From positions 2,852,001-2,916,000 of the forward strand of contig NZ_JARUBN010000001.1 of the NCBI RefSeq assembly GCF_029626265.1: a stretch of 64,000 bases of DNA. The letters run 5' to 3'. Origin of the DNA: Micromonospora sp. WMMD1102. GTDB lineage: Bacteria > Actinomycetota > Actinomycetes > Mycobacteriales > Micromonosporaceae. A program made the translations under genes and the position numbers. This document shows positions 43,028-49,639 of the stretch, in pieces (the stretch's first letter is position 1; every line of letters starts with the position of its first letter). A model generated the notes under the pieces. The model saw nothing but the letters and a program-made list of their open reading frames with translations, was not told the DNA's origin and searched no databases.

Positions 43028-43888
43028 ATGACCGACCTGCTCCAGTCGGTGGTCAACGGCCTGCTGATCGGCGCCGTCTTCGCGCTGGTCGCGGTCGGGC
43101 TGACGCTCATCTACGGCGTGATGGACATCGTCAACTTCGCACACGGCGAGATGGTCATGCTCGGCATGTACACCTCCTTCTTCGCCTGGTCGCTGCTCGG
43201 CCTCGACCCGCTGCTGTCGATCCCGCTCGCCGGGGTCTCGATCGCGCTCACCGGCGCGCTGATGTACGTCGGCGCGGTCGGCCGGGTGCTCGGCAGGTCC
43301 CCGCTGGCCCAGGTGATCGTCACCTTCGGACTCCAGGTGTTCCTGCGCGGGCTGGCACAGTTCCTCTGGACCCCGAACACCCGGACCGTGCCCCGGCCCT
43401 GGGCCGCCGGGCTGCGCTGGGAGATCGGCCCGGTGGTGGTCGGCGGACCGCAGGTCGTGATGGCGGCCGGCGCACTGCTGGCCACCGGCGCGGTCGCGTA
43501 CTTCATGAACCGGACCCGCCTCGGTGGCGCCGTACGGGCCGCCGGGGAGGACCCGGCGGCGGCGTCGCTGATGGGCATCGACCCCCGCAAGATGTACGCG
43601 CTCTGCTGGGTGATCGCCGGCCTGGCCACCGGCGTCGCCGGGGCGCTGCTGATGAACTCCTACTCCGCCGCGCCGACCGCCGGGGTCAGCTTCGTGCTGA
43701 TGGCCTTCGTGGTGGTCGCGTTCGGCGGCTTCGGCAGCATCACCGGGGCGGCCCTGGCCGGCCTGCTCGTCGGAGTCGCCCAGGGCGTCGTCGGGCTGTA
43801 CGCCCCGAGCTACACCCTGGCCGCCGCGCTCGCCCTCTATCTGGTGGTCGTCCTGGTGCGACCGCAGGGACTCCTGGGGACCCGATGA
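43028..43888 (+). CDS. Branched-chain-type ABC permease, LivH-like
   Basis: 286 residues; ATG preceded by AGGGAG. About eight membrane segments; LLIGAVFALVAVGLTLIYGVMDIVNFAHGE at the start and AAGEDPAAASLMGID in the cytoplasmic coupling region are LivH signatures. It forms a heterodimeric channel with the LivM-like protein and overlaps its gene (ATGA), implying fixed stoichiometry. It is part of the importer lying within the 5-oxoprolinase operon. Confidence 0.92.
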   Translation: MTDLLQSVVNGLLIGAVFALVAVGLTLIYGVMDIVNFAHGEMVMLGMYTSFFAWSLLGLDPLLSIPLAGVSIALTGALMYVGAVGRVLGRSPLAQVIVTFGLQVFLRGLAQFLWTPNTRTVPRPWAAGLRWEIGPVVVGGPQVVMAAGALLATGAVAYFMNRTRLGGAVRAAGEDPAAASLMGIDPRKMYALCWVIAGLATGVAGALLMNSYSAAPTAGVSFVLMAFVVVAFGGFGSITGAALAGLLVGVAQGVVGLYAPSYTLAAALALYLVVVLVRPQGLLGTR

Positions 43889-45039
43889 CCGGACACGATC
43901 AAGCTGGGGCGACGAGCGCCCTGACCCTGCCACGCCGGCCGGCACCGACCCGGCCCGGCACTCCGCCGGCCCGTCGACTGCCGGCGTTCAGCACCGCCGC
44001 GTTGATCCTGGCGGTGCTGGCCGCCTATCCGCTGGTCTTCACCGGCTCGGCGGCACACAACATCGGCATCCTGGCGTTGACCTTCGGGATCGCGGCCACC
44101 GGTTGGAACCTGCTCGGCGGCTACACCGGGCAGATCTCCTTCGGGCACGCGCTCTACTTCGGCACCGGCGCCTACACCACCGCGCTGCTGGTCCGGCAGG
44201 GCTGGTCGCCGTGGCTGGCGATCGCGCTCTCGCTGCCACTGGCCGCGCTGCTGGCCGCCGCCGTCGGCTGGCCGTGCTTCCGGCTGCGGCACCACTACTA
44301 CTCGATCGCCACGATCGCGGTCGCCGAGATCGTCTTCATCCTGGTCACCAACCTGCCCGGACTCGGCCAGGCGAACGGCTGGGAGTTGCCGGTGGTCGAG
44401 CCCTCGCTGGCCAACCTCCAGTTCTCGCTGCTGGACAAGCGACCGTACTACTACGTCGCGCTCGGCTTCTTCGGCCTCGCCGCGCTGGCGGTCTGGGCGT
44501 TCCTGCGCGGCCGGGCCGGCAACTACGTCCGGGCGATCCGGGACGACCAGGAGGCCGCGGCGGCGGTCGGCATCGACGTACACCGTTACAAGCTCGCCGC
44601 CGCCGCGCTCTCCGGCGCGATCACCGCGCTGGCCGGCGGCTACTACGTGATGTACGTGCTCTTCGTCGACCCGCCCTCCGGGCTCGGCCTCGACCTGTCG
44701 GTGTCGTTCACCCTGATGGCGGTGCTCGGTGGGGTCGGCCGGTTCTGGGGGCCGCTGCTCGGCGCCTGGGTGCTGGTCTTCGTCCAGGACGCCACCCGGC
44801 AGGAGTTCTCCGGCAGCGGCCGCTCGATCGACCTGCTGCTCTACGGCGCACTGATCGTGCTGATCTCGATCACCGAGCCGGGCGGCCTGCTCGCCATCGG
44901 GCAGCGGCTCTGGGCCCCGGTCGCCCGGCGGCTGGGCCGCGGCCGACCGGCCGAAGACGGCTCGGGACCGCCCGGAGCGACCGCGGGACCGCGGGACGAT
45001 GCCCCGGGGCCGGCCGGATCTGCTGAGGTGGAGCGATGA
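43885..45039 (+). CDS. Branched-chain-type ABC permease, LivM-like
   Basis: 384 residues. It overlaps its neighbours on both sides by ATGA. About ten hydrophobic segments; NLLGGYTGQISFGHALYFGTGAY and IRDDQEAAAAVGID (coupling helix) are LivM signatures. A basic/proline-rich N-terminus and a charged C-terminus (about 35 residues) are extra and probably disordered. It pairs with the LivH-like permease. Confidence 0.92.
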   Translation: MTGHDQAGATSALTLPRRPAPTRPGTPPARRLPAFSTAALILAVLAAYPLVFTGSAAHNIGILALTFGIAATGWNLLGGYTGQISFGHALYFGTGAYTTALLVRQGWSPWLAIALSLPLAALLAAAVGWPCFRLRHHYYSIATIAVAEIVFILVTNLPGLGQANGWELPVVEPSLANLQFSLLDKRPYYYVALGFFGLAALAVWAFLRGRAGNYVRAIRDDQEAAAAVGIDVHRYKLAAAALSGAITALAGGYYVMYVLFVDPPSGLGLDLSVSFTLMAVLGGVGRFWGPLLGAWVLVFVQDATRQEFSGSGRSIDLLLYGALIVLISITEPGGLLAIGQRLWAPVARRLGRGRPAEDGSGPPGATAGPRDDAPGPAGSAEVER

Positions 45040-45758
45040 CCGGGACGCTGCTGAGGATCGACAACCTCTCCTGCCGGTTCGGCGGCCTCTGGGCCAACCG
45101 CGACGTCAGTTTCGAGGTGGCACCGGGGGCGATCGTCGGGCTGATCGGGCCGAACGGCGCCGGCAAGAGCACGCTCTTCTCGATGGTGGCCGGCGCCCAG
45201 CGTCCCACCTCCGGTCGGTTGGAGTTCGACGGCCGGGACGTCACCGGCTGGGCACCGCACCGCGCCGCCCGGGCCGGCGTGGGGCGCACCTTCCAGCTGA
45301 TGCGGGTCTTCGGCTCGATGAGCGTGCTGGAGAACCTCAGCACGGCGGCCTTCGCCCGGCACCCCCGGCTCCGGGACGCCCGACGGCGGGCCGGCGAGGT
45401 CGCCGAGCTGACCGGACTCGGCCCGGTCCTGGACGCACCGGCCGCGTCGCTCACCGCCGCCTGGAAGAAGCGTCTGGAGATGGGGCGGGCGCTGGCAACC
45501 GGGCCGAAACTGCTGCTGCTCGACGAGGTGCTCTCCGGGCTGACGCCGACCGAGGCGCGCGAGGCGGTCGAGATCGTCCGCACCATCAACCGGAACGGCG
45601 TCACCATCCTGATGGTGGAACACGTGATGGAGGTAATCATGCCGCTCTGCCACCGGGTGGTGGTGCTGCACTACGGGCAGAAGATCAGCGAGGGTACACC
45701 GGAGCAGGTCGCGCACGATCCGGCGGTGGTCGAGGCGTACCTGGGGAAGGCGTTGTAG
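45036..45758 (+). CDS. ABC ATPase, LivG-like
   Basis: 240 residues. Walker A IGPNGAGKST, Q-loop TFQLMRVFGSM, an atypical signature region SLTAAWKKRLEMGRAL in place of a strict LSGGQ, Walker B LLLLDEVLSGL and switch VEHVMEVIM. The replacement of LSGGQ by LTAAWK is notable, since Liv-type ATPases usually keep LSxGxQ; ATP hydrolysis may then rely on the LivF site. It follows LivM with ATGA overlap and directly precedes LivF. Confidence 0.9.
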   Translation: MTGTLLRIDNLSCRFGGLWANRDVSFEVAPGAIVGLIGPNGAGKSTLFSMVAGAQRPTSGRLEFDGRDVTGWAPHRAARAGVGRTFQLMRVFGSMSVLENLSTAAFARHPRLRDARRRAGEVAELTGLGPVLDAPAASLTAAWKKRLEMGRALATGPKLLLLDEVLSGLTPTEAREAVEIVRTINRNGVTILMVEHVMEVIMPLCHRVVVLHYGQKISEGTPEQVAHDPAVVEAYLGKAL

Positions 45759-46460
45759 ATGCTGACCGTTCGGGATCTCCACGTGGACTACGCCGGTGTC
45801 GTCGCGCTGCGCGGCGTCGACCTGCGGGTCGAGGCGGGCGAACTGGTGGCGCTGGTCGGCGCGAACGGGGCCGGCAAGAGCACCCTGCTGGCGGCCGTCT
45901 CCGGGCTGCACCGGCCGGTACGCGGCACGGTGACCTTCCTCGACGAGGAGGTGAGCGGGCTGCCGGCGTACCGGATCGCCCGCCGGGGTGCGGTGCTGGT
46001 GCCGGAGGGGCGGCGGCTCTTCGGCCACCAGACGGTGTCGCAGAACCTGCTGCTCGGCGGCTACCACAGCAGCGCCGCCGAGCGGGAGAGCGACCTGGCC
46101 CGGGTCTACGACCTCTTCCCGGTGCTGGCCGAGCGCTCCGGCCAGCGCGCCGGTACGCTCTCCGGCGGCGAGCAGCAGATGGTGGCGCTCGGCCGGGCGC
46201 TGATGAGCCGGCCGAAGCTGCTGATGCTGGACGAGCCCTCGCTCGGCATCTCGCCGAAGTTCACCAGGATGATCTTCGAGGTGCTGGCCGAGATCCGTCG
46301 GTCCGGCACCACCATGCTGCTGGTCGAGCAGAACCTGCGGGCGGCGCTGGAGCTGGCCGACCGGGCGTACGTGTTGCAGACCGGCGAGGTGGTGATGTCC
46401 GGCCCGGCCGGCGAGCTGGCCGCCTCCGACGAGGTACGCCGCTCGTACCTCGGGCTGTGA
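45759..46460 (+). CDS. ABC ATPase, LivF-like
   Basis: 233 residues; its ATG follows the LivG stop without a gap. Walker A VGANGAGKST, Q-loop region LVPEGRRLFGHQTV, canonical signature LSGGEQQMVALGRAL, Walker B LLMLDEPSLG and switch VEQNLRAAL. This is the catalytically standard partner of the LivG-like ATPase. PxpB follows with a short gap. Confidence 0.92.
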   Translation: MLTVRDLHVDYAGVVALRGVDLRVEAGELVALVGANGAGKSTLLAAVSGLHRPVRGTVTFLDEEVSGLPAYRIARRGAVLVPEGRRLFGHQTVSQNLLLGGYHSSAAERESDLARVYDLFPVLAERSGQRAGTLSGGEQQMVALGRALMSRPKLLMLDEPSLGISPKFTRMIFEVLAEIRRSGTTMLLVEQNLRAALELADRAYVLQTGEVVMSGPAGELAASDEVRRSYLGL

Positions 46461-46486
46461 GCGGGTACGACGGGAAGGGTGCGAGG

Positions 46487-47209
46487 GTGCGGATCATCCC
46501 GGTGGGGCTGCGTGCGTTGCTGCTGGAGGTCGCCGAGCCGGGGCAGACCGCCGCACTTGTCGCCGAACTGCACCGGCGGCGGGACCGGGGCGAACTCGGT
46601 GGCGCGCGGGATGTCGTACCCGGTGAGGTGACCGTGCTGGTCGACGGGGTGGACGATCCGGCGGCGCTGGCCGGGCGGCTCGACGGCTGGCGGCCGACCT
46701 CGGCCCGGCCCCCGGACGGGCCGCTGGTCGAGGTGCCCGTCCGCTATGACGGCGCCGACCTGGCCGAGGTGGCCCGGCACTGGGGTGTCGCGGAGCGGGA
46801 GGTGCGGCGGATCCACGGCGCTCCGGAATACCGGGTCGCGTTCTGCGGCTTCGCCCCCGGCTTCGGCTACCTGACCGGGCTGCCGGAGCGCTACCACCTG
46901 CCCCGCCGGGCGGTGCCCCGGACCCGGGTGCCGGCCGGCGCGGTGGCGCTGGCCGGCGGCTACGCCGGCATCTACCCCCGGGACTCGCCCGGCGGCTGGC
47001 AACTGGTCGGCAGCACCGACCTGGTCCTCTTCGACCCGGACCGGGACCCGGTCGCCCTGCTCACCCCCGGCACCCGGGTCCGGTTCCGGGACGTCGACCC
47101 TGACAACGCGGGCCTTCGGGACGCGGACCTTCGGGACGCGGGGCTCCGGGACGCGGGCCTTCGGGACGCGGGCCGCCGGGAGGTCGACCGCCGGGACGTC
47201 GACGGATGA
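46487..47209 (+). CDS. pxpB: 5-oxoprolinase subunit B (KipI/AHS1 family)
   Basis: 240 residues. I use the GTG at 46487, which has GGGAAGGG seven bases upstream; a GTG at 46457 overlapping the livF stop is possible but has no better RBS. RIIPVGLRALLLEV and FCGFAPGFGYLTGLPE followed by VPAGAVALAGGYAGIYP are AHS1 hallmarks. Its complex with PxpC and PxpA converts 5-oxoproline to glutamate with ATP. Homologues were long named KipI, an inhibitor of kinase KinA in Bacillus. The C-terminal ~30 residues are a GLRDA repeat. Confidence 0.92.
   Translation: MRIIPVGLRALLLEVAEPGQTAALVAELHRRRDRGELGGARDVVPGEVTVLVDGVDDPAALAGRLDGWRPTSARPPDGPLVEVPVRYDGADLAEVARHWGVAEREVRRIHGAPEYRVAFCGFAPGFGYLTGLPERYHLPRRAVPRTRVPAGAVALAGGYAGIYPRDSPGGWQLVGSTDLVLFDPDRDPVALLTPGTRVRFRDVDPDNAGLRDADLRDAGLRDAGLRDAGRREVDRRDVDG
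47108..47182 (+). repeat. 15-bp in-frame tandem repeat, about five units, at the pxpB 3' end
   Basis: gcgggccttcgggac and close variants encode pentapeptides such as DAGLR at the PxpB C-terminus, beyond the conserved domain. Confidence 0.95.
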
Positions 47210-47231
47210 CCGGGCCGGGCGGGGCACCGGC

Positions 47232-48155
47232 GTGACCGGTGGACGCTTCGTCGAGGTCGTCCGGTCCGGCGCGCTCAGCACCGTGCAGGATCTCGGCCGG
47301 CCCGGTCACGCGCATCTCGGGGTACCGCACTCGGGCGCCCTCGACCTGCCCGCGCACCTGCTGGCGAACCGGCTGGTCGGCAACCCGCCCGGCGCGGCGA
47401 CGATCGAGACGACCGTCACCGGCGTCGCGGTGCGGTTCGGCCGGGCCGGCACCGTCGCGGTCACCGGAGCCTGGGCACCGGTCACCGTGGACGGCCGGCC
47501 GGCGAGCTGGTCGGCTCCGGTGTCGGTACCGGCCGGCGCCCGCGTCGAGGTGCACCCCGCCCGGCGTGGGCTGCGCAACTATCTCGCCCTCGCCGGTGGG
47601 ATCGCGGTGCCGGCGGTACTCGGCAGTCGCGCCACCGACCTGCTCTCCGGGCTCGGCCCCGCGCCACTCGCCGTCGGGGACCGGCTGCCGCTGGGAGAGG
47701 TCTCCGGGCCACCGGCCCCGGTCGACGTCGCACCGACCGGCACCCTGGTCGAGGAGCTGACCCTGCGGGTCCTGCCCGGCCCCCGGGCCGACTGGTTCAC
47801 CGACGACGCGGTACGCATCCTCGGCGCCGAGTGCTACCGGGTCTCCGTGCACAGCAACCGGATCGGGGTACGCCTCGACGGCCCCGCGCTGCCCCGCCGG
47901 ATCGGCGGGGAACTGCGCAGCGAGGGCGTGGTACTCGGCGCGGTGCAGGTGCCGGCGGCCGGCTCCCCGGTGGTCTTCCTGGCCGACCATCCGACCATGG
48001 GCGGCTATCCGGTGATCGGCGTGCTGCACCCCGACGACCTTCCGCAGGTCGCCCAGGCCGCTCCGGGAAGCCCGGTCCGCTTCCAGGTCGTCGAGCCCGG
48101 CCGGTGCACCGGCGCGGGTCTCGGCAGCCGCACCGGCGAGGGCCTCGGCCGGTGA
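47232..48155 (+). CDS. pxpC: 5-oxoprolinase subunit C (KipA/AHS2 family)
   Basis: 307 residues from a GTG 22 bp after pxp[21 protein letters not shown] followed by [19 protein letters not shown] is the AHS2 hallmark; [20 protein letters not shown] and [15 protein letters not shown] complete it. Forms the PxpBC part of ATP-dependent 5-oxoprolinase. It is the last gene of the operon that begins with pxpA. A short low-complexity C-terminus ([13 protein letters not shown]) extends past the domain. Confidence 0.93.
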
Positions 48156-48255: not shown

Positions 48256-48687
48256 ATGACCGTGGCCACCCGTCCCGGCTTCCACCTGGCGATCCCGGTC
48301 GACGACCTGGCCCGGGCCCGGGCCTTCTACGGCGGCGTACTCGGCCTTGCCGAGGGACGTTCGGCGGAGACCTGGGTCGACTGGGACTTCTACGGTCACC
48401 AGGTGGTGACCCACGCCGTACCGGGGATCGGCCAGGCCGACGCCGGACGCAATCCGGTGGACGGGCACGACGTACCGGTGCCGCACTTCGGGCTGATCCT
48501 CTCGGTCGACGACTTCCACGCCCTCGCGGACCGGATCCGGGCCGGCGGCGGCGAGTTCGTGATCGAGCCGTACCTGCGGTTCGCGGGTGAGCCGGGGGAG
48601 CAGTGGACGATGTTCTTCCGCGACCCCGCCGGCAACGCCCTGGAGTTCAAGGCGTTCCGTGACGAGTCCCAGATCTTCGCCCGCTGA
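48256..48687 (+). CDS. VOC-family (glyoxalase/dioxygenase-fold) protein
   Basis: 143 residues; ATG preceded by GGAGAGGAGC. Paired beta-alpha-beta modules: [23 protein letters not shown] at the start, and a second beginning [20 protein letters not shown] and ending [15 protein letters not shown]. Metal ligands are plausibly H in FHLAIP and E in ALEFK, plus H in the middle. Family roles include isomerisation, dioxygenation and binding of antibiotics; the substrate here is unknown. The FxDPxGNxLEF ending is typical. 100 bp of non-coding DNA separate it from pxpC. Confidence 0.9.
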
Positions 48688-48727
48688 GGCGCACTCCGCC
48701 GCCGCGCCCCGGGACGGTTCGCGGCGG

Positions 48728-48764
48728 TAAAACGGTGGACAGGGTAGGCCGGCCGGCCTAGCGT
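48728..48764 (+). promoter_or_regulatory. WhiB7-like promoter: TAAAA-3-TGGACA-17-TAGCGT
   Basis: TGGACA (48736-48741) and TAGCGT (48759-48764) are spaced 17 bp, ideal for the primary sigma factor. TAAAA (48728-48732) sits 3 bp upstream of the -35, the layout at which actinobacterial WhiB7 binds beside sigma-A. The start of transcription would be near 48771, giving a leader of about 120 nt. WhiB7 involvement is inferred from this pattern. Confidence 0.6.
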
Positions 48765-48789
48765 CGGCCGCGTCAGTGTCGATCCCGAC

Positions 48790-48876
48790 GTGTGAAGAGG
48801 TGCATTTTATGCGTGTCGAGTCCGTTCCGACCGTCAACTCGGGACGACCACGCTGATGCCCACGACCTCTTCACAC
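48790..48876 (+). promoter_or_regulatory. Long leader hairpin enclosing an upstream ORF
   Basis: Perfect 12-bp outer arms, GTGTGAAGAGGT (48790-48801) and ACCTCTTCACAC (48865-48876), are extended inward by GCAT/ATGC (48802/48856), GCGTG/CACGC (48811/48849), TCG/CGA and TCC/GGA pairs. The left arm contains GAAGAGG, the RBS of the leader ORF. The right arm ends two bases before TAAGGA, the RBS of the methyltransferase. Ribosome position on the leader ORF would therefore decide whether the stem forms, as in translational attenuators of resistance genes. Confidence 0.75.
48809..48856 (+). CDS. 15-residue leader peptide
   Basis: ATG to TGA encodes MRVESVPTVNSGRPR. GAAGAGG lies 8-14 nt upstream at proper spacing. 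The ORF is contained inside the long hairpin and ends 36 nt before the methyltransferase GTG. The SV-P-T-V-N core and R-P-R end could support ribosome stalling, but the sequence is unlike any leader peptide I know. Translation is inferred from its RBS and its placement. Confidence 0.55.
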   Translation: MRVESVPTVNSGRPR

Positions 48877-48892
48877 CTAAGGACTTCCAGAA

Positions 48893-49639
48893 GTGGACCT
48901 ACCACGTAACTTCACCATCCGGGAGCGCGGCCACCGCATCCACAACCCGTTCGACAGCGGCAAGCTCGCCACCCTGGGGGCGGCACTGCGGCTGCCGCCC
49001 GGCGCCCGGCTCCTCGACCTCGCCTGCGGCTCCGGCGAGATGCTCTGCACCTGGGCCCGGGACCACCGGGTGACCGGTACCGGGGTGGACATCAGCACGG
49101 TCTTCCTTCGGCAGGCCGAGACACGGGCCGCCGAACTCGGCGTCACCGACCGGGTCGAGTTCGTGCACGGCGACGCGTCCGGCCACGTCGCCGACACCCC
49201 GGTCGACGTCGCCGCCTGTGTCGGTGCCACCTGGATCGGTGACGGGGTTCCGGGCACCGTGGCGCTGCTGCGGCGCAGCCTCCGCCCCGGCGGGATCATG
49301 CTGGTCGGCGAGCCGTACTGGCGCCGCGAGCCGACCGACCAGACGGTCGTCGAGGCGTGCCACGCGACCACCCGGGACGACTTCCTGCCGCTGCCCGAGA
49401 CGCTGGAACGATTCGCCGAACTCGGCACCGACGTGGTCGAGATGGTCCTCGCCGACCAGGGCAGCTGGGACCGCTACGTCGCGGCCCAGTGGCTCAACCT
49501 GCGGCGCTGGCTCGACCGGAACCCCGACGACGAACTGCACGACGAACTGCGCGCGGAACTCGACACGGCTCCGGTACGGCACGTCAGATACCAGCGGGAG
49601 TATCTCGGCTGGGGCGTCTTCGCCCTGATGGACCGCTGA
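48893..49639 (+). CDS. Class I SAM-dependent methyltransferase under leader control
   Basis: 248 residues. The GTG at 48893 is fixed by an in-frame TAA at 48878 that itself overlaps the RBS TAAGGA. SAM motif I LLDLACGSGEMLCTWAR (about residue 43), acidic end of beta-2 GTGVDIS, motif II VDVAACVGATWIGDG and a post-motif LRPGGIMLVGEPYW are all intact. Conserved-looking N-terminal FTIRERGHRIHNPFD precedes the fold. The substrate is unknown; the family includes small-molecule methyltransferases. A WhiB7-like promoter, leader peptide and hairpin suggest inducible expression, so a protective or detoxifying role is possible. A bidirectional terminator follows. Confidence 0.88.
   Translation: MDLPRNFTIRERGHRIHNPFDSGKLATLGAALRLPPGARLLDLACGSGEMLCTWARDHRVTGTGVDISTVFLRQAETRAAELGVTDRVEFVHGDASGHVADTPVDVAACVGATWIGDGVPGTVALLRRSLRPGGIMLVGEPYWRREPTDQTVVEACHATTRDDFLPLPETLERFAELGTDVVEMVLADQGSWDRYVAAQWLNLRRWLDRNPDDELHDELRAELDTAPVRHVRYQREYLGWGVFALMDR

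Follow-up and report, generated by a model that had tools for sequence, protein, structure and literature searches.

A WhiB7-type promoter, an overlapping upstream reading frame and a stem before actinobacterial yjhP-family genes: a candidate translational attenuator

The methyltransferase gene and its leader

The window, i.e., the whole stretch of DNA analysed here (64,000 nucleotides of Micromonospora sp. WMMD1102), carries a gene for a class I SAM-dependent methyltransferase, preceded by a putative promoter, an upstream open reading frame (uORF) in two parts and a predicted RNA stem. The features, in order of position, are as follows.

48728..48733, + strand: AT-rich box TAAAAC of WhiB7/WblC type, 2 nt before the -35 element (consensus GAAAWY from PMC7157823)
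48736..48741, + strand: -35 element TGGACA, which fits TKGMNN
48759..48764, + strand: -10 element TAGCGT after a 17-nt spacer, which fits TANNNT
48771..48772, + strand: predicted transcription start, 7-8 nt past the -10 element, placed after PMC7157823
48779..48889, + strand: whole leader element, matched by covariance model R1 with 73.7 bits (R1 was built from 36 leaders that include the window)
48790..48801, + strand: left arm of the outer stem, GTGTGAAGAGGT, overlapping the uORF Shine-Dalgarno sequence (from sequence, fold and relatives)
48794..48802, + strand: Shine-Dalgarno sequence of the uORF, GAAGAGGTG, read from the sequence; relatives also have one
48809..48856, + strand: first part of the uORF, MRVESVPTVNSGRPR, from ATG 48809 to stop TGA 48854-48856, with a one-base shift relative to congeners
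48811..48853, + strand: inner hairpin within the uORF, a minimum-energy prediction (81-82% of cells paired in the inner helix of relatives)
48856..48909, + strand: second part of the uORF, MPTTSSHLRTSRSGPTT, from a UGAUG restart to a TAA at methyltransferase position +14, the stop site in 38/67 leaders
48865..48876, + strand: right arm of the outer stem, ACCTCTTCACAC (from sequence, fold and relatives)
48878..48883, + strand: Shine-Dalgarno sequence of the methyltransferase, TAAGGA, read from the sequence and also present in relatives; it starts one base past the right arm
48893..49639, + strand: YjhP-family class I SAM-dependent methyltransferase, 248 aa, GTG start

A sequence-only reading of this DNA had named the promoter, a 15-codon ORF, perfect 12-nt arms and the Shine-Dalgarno sequence TAAGGA abutting the right arm, and all of these were recovered. 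The second ORF (48856-48909), which ends 14 nt inside the methyltransferase gene, had gone unnoticed.

The solved structure of E. coli YjhP (PDB 1nkv) matched residues 1-247 of the window methyltransferase (E 2.4e-102), and two further solved relatives matched it over the full length. Judged by full-length homology, the protein is a member of the YjhP family. The enzyme is not Erm-like. We rejected an identity as Erm or another rRNA methyltransferase in favour of YjhP: Pfam and NCBIfam yielded generic SAM methyltransferase domains only, with no NCBIfam model near its cut-off for this protein. The copies of P. mayteni and P. endophytica (Plantactinospora) are 90% and 87% identical to the window methyltransferase, and those in three listed E. 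coli records 60.0-61.3%. Relatives also occur in 18 records of a plasmid collection, with ten listed Enterobacteriaceae (H3, H5-H7, H10-H15) at 60.0-63.0% identity. In the one E. coli record examined (H6), a YjhX(TopAI)-family ORF is followed by a GNAT-family ORF and then by the 61.3% identical copy, which is the gene order topAI-yjhQ-yjhP. An IS3-like transposase gene lies near this yjhP-like gene.

Beside the window gene topAI-yjhQ is absent; the neighbours are a glyoxalase-family gene, a sulfotransferase gene, a RibD_C-domain gene and an alpha/beta hydrolase gene. By eye and from translations only, 43885-48155 of the window appears to hold a branched-chain/urea-type ABC transporter-like set, followed by allophanate-hydrolase/5-oxoprolinase-like genes. 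For E. coli, the available text of PMC12096079 reports normal growth of a yjhP knockout. In the same study mRNA m6A peaks were down in all four knockouts tested, and the authors attributed the change to no single gene of the four.

Promoter, uORF and stem in related loci

We compared 185 loci, which gave 167 distinct upstream regions after merging those whose last 120 nt were identical. The homologue sets lean to close relatives (the best 80 of at least 553 confirmed matches); further homologues came from 60 hand-picked stretches, and class-level loci from 15/394 genomes at E 1e-90 or better. The methyltransferase gene itself was present in 144/300 genomes searched.

The WblC promoter consensus reads GAAAWY, 3 nt, TKGMNN, 16-19 nt, TANNNT (PMC7157823). 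We scored the 300 nt upstream of each gene, requiring the core letters of the -35 and -10 elements, permitting gaps of 2-4 and counting seven further positions. The window promoter (TAAAAC-2-TGGACA-17-TAGCGT) is a near match at 6/7 with its gap of 2, and locus L003 reads GAAAAC-3-TGGACA-17-TAGCGT. A score of at least 5/7 was reached in 95/167 upstream regions compared to 0.6 in dinucleotide shuffles, and 7/7 in 28/167 compared to 0.0, while 0/109 windows inside the gene reached even 4. A first scan, which included the last bases before the gene, had returned 99/167. The -10 element ends 90-152 nt before the methyltransferase start in 84 of these 99, 6-9 nt before it in 11 and elsewhere in four. 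A -10 element ending 6-9 nt before the start implies that the transcript would be leaderless; these relatives are L048, L096, L110, L160, L161, L171, L181, L188, L195, L199 and L209.

The window's genome also encodes, at L220, a WhiB protein whose AT-hook reads RGRPRK; its gene lies behind a promoter of the same type (GTAATT-3-TTGCCC-18-TAGCCT). An AT-hook of this kind is the mark of WhiB7, and L220 is presumably WhiB7. The WhiB7-like promoter of the sequence-only reading is thus borne out by its recurrence in relatives and by this protein, and there is strong comparative evidence that the gene would be under control of a WhiB7/WblC-type promoter. WhiB-family ORFs with identical translations also lie at three places in the window's own genome (L217, L218, L219). 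In S. coelicolor, WblC activates seven methyltransferase genes according to the available text of PMC7157823, and one of these may be a yjhP homologue. In M. abscessus, MAB_2845, named aconitate methyltransferase, is a ChIP target of WhiB7 (PMC10727445, available text).

A candidate uORF was found in 114/167 upstream regions. For 47 of these the call rests solely on a loose rule (a Shine-Dalgarno sequence plus an open overlapping frame), and some may be chance, because open overlapping candidates also occur in other frames. A pattern for the uORF start matched 68/99 distinct leaders, and removal of L072 as a false start left 67. The distance from uORF start to methyltransferase start was 1 modulo 3 in 63/67, over leader lengths from 55 to 124 nt; of the exceptions, three gave 2 modulo 3 and one, the window, 0. 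This frame is kept by 13/15 distinct leader lengths (P-value = 3e-5, with the frame named afterwards). Among 37 representatives below 60% identity the frames split 34, 2 and 1, and 35/37 were open past the gene start. When the uORF start was chosen by its Shine-Dalgarno sequence alone, the conserved frame was obtained in 59/72 cases at a score of at least 6 and in 96/152 at a score of at least 4. Across all 167 loci, an open frame led by a Shine-Dalgarno sequence and overlapping the gene start occurred 112 times in the uORF frame, 19 times in the other out-of-frame register and eight times in frame with the gene; at a score of at least 6 the counts were 63 for the uORF frame, and 2 and 0 for the other two. 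Stops between codon 3 and the gene start were found in 2/67 leaders in the uORF frame, compared to 54/67 and 22/67 in the other frames. The 112 leaders used below for arm swaps and for the M-x-V motif were picked for frame and openness and are no test of the frame, which was tested instead by the 67 leaders, the representatives, the choice by Shine-Dalgarno sequence, the overlap count over all 167 loci and the stop counts.

The uORF stops at methyltransferase +14 in 38/67 leaders, at +35 in 16/67, elsewhere inside the gene (+29 to +73) in 11/67, and before or at its start in 2/67. Judged by the frame, the rarity of stops and the stop positions inside the gene, what is conserved is a uORF that is out of frame with the gene and extends across its start. 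The window has one base fewer than its close relatives, and therefore its uORF stops after 15 codons in UGAUG, from where the second ORF leads to the usual +14 site. The split could be genuine, in which case ribosomes would still be led to +14, or it could reflect an assembly indel. Because the uORF is split in this genome and relatives usually carry a single uORF over the gene start, the 15-mer is not the typical element: of the leader-peptide ORF claimed from the sequence, the uORF stands, with its conserved frame, and the 15-codon peptide as a conserved element is not supported.

Conservation of the peptide in orthologues, which the sequence-only reading had put forward as a check, was not found beyond M-x-V, a motif near the uORF N-terminus in 92/112 leaders (selected for frame, not for the motif). 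The information content by uORF codon position (0.85, 0.91 and 0.95 bits in 35 leaders of equal length) has no protein-like pattern. No conserved arrest peptide was detected across the leaders: apart from M-x-V only C-terminal residues recur, since they overlie the Shine-Dalgarno sequence and the gene start, and the peptides of the window, L006 and L122 share little.

The start codon of the methyltransferase differs with the leader. ATG is used at 8/114 loci with a uORF compared to 28/46 loci that are leaderless or have neither promoter nor uORF (P-value = 2e-12, relatedness not removed); 5 of the 46 lack a usual start codon at the extrapolated place, and seven promoter-only loci were omitted. 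Sequestration of the Shine-Dalgarno sequence by methyltransferase codons 3-5 was also considered, but the third base of codon 3 varies freely (0.21 bits), which led us to drop the idea.

The perfect 12-nt arms of the window extend to a 19-nt pair (48783-48801/48865-48883) at 84%. The 130-nt leader folds with -50.7 kcal/mol, compared to -37.5 kcal/mol (sd 3.66) for 200 dinucleotide shuffles (z = -3.6; 0/200 as good). In 35 leaders of equal length, the named stem, which joins the Shine-Dalgarno region of the uORF to the right arm and includes an inner hairpin, had 71.2% of its cells paired versus 29-44% after sliding by 1-3 columns, a comparison that favours the named stem since it was drawn from one leader plus the consensus. 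Cells changed on both sides numbered 47 compared to 23.6 (sd 4.4) in shuffles, and the covariation score was 0.206 versus 0.152 (sd 0.011), as high in 0/500 shuffles, which keep relatedness. In the same leaders the number of pairs changed on both sides was not above shuffles (14 versus 12.0; 103/500 as high), and unguided RNAalifold missed the stem on this alignment. The outcome was similar for a second alignment of 36 leaders, most of them shared with the first (pairs changed on both sides 15 versus 12.3; 54/500 as high). The arms of a leader pair better with each other than after swaps across species (-13.23 versus -12.02 kcal/mol, sd 0.215, n = 112). By length group, own pairing beats the mean swapped pairing in 19/29, 25/48 and 21/35 leaders; with gains this modest, the short Micromonosporaceae leaders support the stem weakly. 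The stem pairing the Shine-Dalgarno region of the uORF with the right arm thus shows modest covariation. Conservation of the arms with compensatory change, another check put forward from the sequence, was found, best in the longer leaders.

In folding predictions, opening the region from -18 to +3 of the methyltransferase costs 13.2 kcal/mol in native leaders and 10.6 kcal/mol in shuffled ones (native higher in 94/116). With a ribosome on codon 1, 3, 6 or 10 the predicted cost is about 10 kcal/mol, and opening becomes easier with the ribosome on codon 1 in 99/116 leaders and on codon 10 in 91/104. A stall at codon 3 lowers the cost for -25 to +3 by 5.18 kcal/mol, compared to 0.38 in a truncation control (larger than the control in 106/116), and for -14 to +3 by only 1.9 compared to 0.29 kcal/mol (larger in 82/116). 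The window itself is predicted at 11.1 free, 8.0 shuffled and 8.4-8.7 stalled, and in L005, L006, L054 and L179 a codon 1 stall is predicted not to ease opening. The methyltransferase Shine-Dalgarno sequence lies beside the stem, outside its pairs. That a stalled ribosome would expose the methyltransferase start, as the sequence-only reading had held, is thus supported as a folding prediction by the codon 1 counts and the truncation controls.

No Rho-independent terminator was found in 48650-49000 of the window, and the last 45 nt before the gene contain a T-rich stretch at 5/114 loci with a uORF. The lack of a terminator argues for a control of translation, not of termination. Searches against Rfam gave three chance-level matches in the window, none of them over the leader, and a single tRNA in 11 related loci.

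Proposed control, alternatives and known systems

We propose, with a probability of roughly 60%, that the leader is a WhiB7-activated attenuator acting at the level of translation, in which a ribosome stalled early on the overlapping uORF would prevent the stem from closing and leave the gene start clear of passing ribosomes. Of its two layers, the promoter has been dealt with above; for the uORF and stem, the anatomy is supported and we infer the action. Induction of WhiB7 would lead to transcription from the WhiB7/WblC-type promoter. The transcript would carry a uORF with a strong Shine-Dalgarno sequence, overlapping the methyltransferase start out of frame, and a stem in which this Shine-Dalgarno sequence pairs with the right arm, directly upstream of the one of the methyltransferase. 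In unstressed cells, ribosomes would run along the uORF across the methyltransferase start and the stem would close behind them, such that the weak GTG or TTG start would be little used. A drug or a shortage that holds a ribosome early on the uORF would leave the left arm covered, and the right arm and the methyltransferase Shine-Dalgarno sequence open. With the ribosome stalled, the start would not be run over and the enzyme would be made. Since a stall at any of many codons would suffice, there would be no need for a conserved peptide. The attenuator first suggested from the sequence is therefore retained in part: promoter, uORF frame, covarying stem and predicted relief speak for it; its 15-codon peptide is not supported as the conserved element, and the enzyme is not of the Erm type.

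Translational coupling would assign the uORF a positive role: ribosomes would open the stem, terminate 14 nt into the gene and move back to start anew at the GTG, leaving the promoter alone as the switch. Stops inside the gene in 65/67 leaders, 38 of them at +14, fit this idea, and so does the window, where the frame is lost and yet the UGAUG restart leads a second ORF to the same +14 stop. However, 16/67 leaders stop at +35 and 11/67 elsewhere inside (+29 to +73), positions that are far for re-initiation. The weak start codons, together with the higher cost of opening, look more like repression, and where relatives have the promoter directly at the start, the gene would presumably be expressed without a uORF. 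We therefore regard coupling as unlikely. Quite unlikely, in our view, is a nascent-peptide sensor for one drug class in the manner of erm leaders, with M-x-V or the early codons as arrest motif; the frequency of M-x-V near the N-terminus (92/112) speaks for it, but no longer peptide is conserved and the window, L006 and L122 share little.

If the stem and Shine-Dalgarno sequence were kept for messenger stability or timing, the open frame would be a by-product, in agreement with the absence of peptide conservation beyond M-x-V and with third codon positions as conserved as the others. Such an RNA-only element would have to be reconciled with a frame kept over leader lengths of 55 to 124 nt (13/15 distinct lengths, P-value = 3e-5) and with stops that are rare in the uORF frame only (2/67 versus 54 and 22), which makes it very unlikely. 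Folding and open frames are common in long GC-rich leaders, and the other two frames contain open overlapping candidates at 19 and 8 of the 167 loci; nevertheless, the promoter, the frame, the covariation score and the start-codon association all exceed their controls, and a chance resemblance or an ordinary leader without control function is hardly tenable.

The proposed attenuator shares elements with several known systems. In ermC-type translational attenuation, a uORF with hairpins precedes a methyltransferase gene and a stall opens the gene start. The yjhP leader likewise has a uORF and a hairpin before a methyltransferase gene, with the opening by a stall only predicted. It differs in that the enzyme is not Erm, the Shine-Dalgarno sequence lies beside the stem, no arrest peptide is conserved and the uORF overlaps the gene start.

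The available text of PMC12121999, which also mentions ermC-type attenuation, places E. coli yjhP in the topAI-yjhQ-yjhP operon behind toiL, an antibiotic-sensing uORF. Several antibiotics that target the ribosome are sensed by this uORF, which frees a start site in response; the operon includes the homologous yjhP. As described there, toiL regulates the first gene, topAI, masks its Shine-Dalgarno sequence directly and works with Rho, whereas the actinobacterial uORF overlaps the methyltransferase start and lies behind a WhiB7-type promoter; the two uORFs are set apart by description. The uORF attenuator of whiB7/wblC resembles the yjhP leader in being an actinobacterial uORF linked to ribosome stress and a WhiB7-type promoter, but whiB7 uses a Rho-independent terminator (PMC10727445, PMC11550727, available text), of which none was found in the yjhP leader. 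Two layers also exist for are5sc of S. coelicolor, a WblC-regulon gene with a uORF stalled by lincosamide-type drugs; it is an ABCF gene with very short uORFs and a terminator/anti-terminator, and the available text of PMC12421871 reports no overlap with the gene start. Precedents exist for uORFs that sense antibiotics, for WhiB7 regulons and, in are5sc (PMC12421871), for control at two levels. The open literature, to which our search was confined and which omits most subscription papers and supplementary regulon tables, yielded no account of this leader or of a WhiB7-controlled yjhP.

Since E. coli yjhP sits behind toiL and the actinobacterial homologue behind a WhiB7-type leader, two phyla seem to put the YjhP enzyme under ribosome-stress control. 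As the ribosome-sensing leaders that appear to govern it differ between E. coli and actinobacteria, this widespread but uncharacterised methyltransferase can now be tested for a part in how cells respond to ribosome inhibitors. We raise more tentatively, at somewhat less than even odds, that YjhP is a widespread ribosome-stress enzyme, possibly an intrinsic antibiotic-tolerance methyltransferase, which two phyla placed independently under translation-sensing uORFs (toiL in one, a WhiB7 promoter with a run-over uORF in the other). The running over of the start by uORF translation would then itself be the repressor, and therefore any early stall, whatever the drug, would release the gene.

Distribution and probable loss of the leader

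The 167 loci comprise 81 with uORF and promoter, 33 with a uORF only, 11 leaderless with promoter, 7 with a promoter only and 35 scored as having neither, some of which look leaderless by eye with a promoter below the threshold. One leaderless-looking locus of this kind is L069; L038 keeps the promoter, and its leader is shortened. Leaders with a uORF are spread over most of a tree of 109 proteins (midpoint rooting only). By the scoring rules used, promoter and uORF are both missing from one nested group of 13 (Nocardia, Nonomuraea, Herbidospora, Streptomyces and others; support 94/45, and 100/96 for 12 of them). Our reading of this pattern is that the leader is old and was lost repeatedly. 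The nested loci (L057, L064, L066, L071, L072, L083, L091, L092, L095, L101, L139, L144 and L147) have a different upstream context, and several share a stretch similar to ATGACGGAAAGGAA before an ATG start.

The leader appears to be common to many soil actinobacteria, and its promoter, overlapping frame and hairpin together look like a switch opened by stalled ribosomes. The natural series of intact overlapping uORF, split uORF and leaderless genes offers a test of control by overlapping uORFs of a bacterial gene, and of leader loss.

Covariance model R1 gave strong matches (E < 1e-5) at nine places in nine genomes, out of 101 family and 148 class genomes with the own genome in both sets. All nine precede YjhP-family genes, one of them decayed, and at least four are rows of the model (G000, G003, G005, and G096 through its identical twin L106). 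Among six weaker matches, L229 lies before a YjhP-family gene; L228, L230, L231, L234 and L235 do not. The model is insensitive, with any match at E 0.1 or better in only 10/101 family genomes; it finds close variants only, and more distant leaders may therefore exist elsewhere. The decayed methyltransferase copy, in genome G337 (L233, 1500-2190), follows a leader (E 1.1e-10) in which promoter, uORF and stem all seem undamaged.
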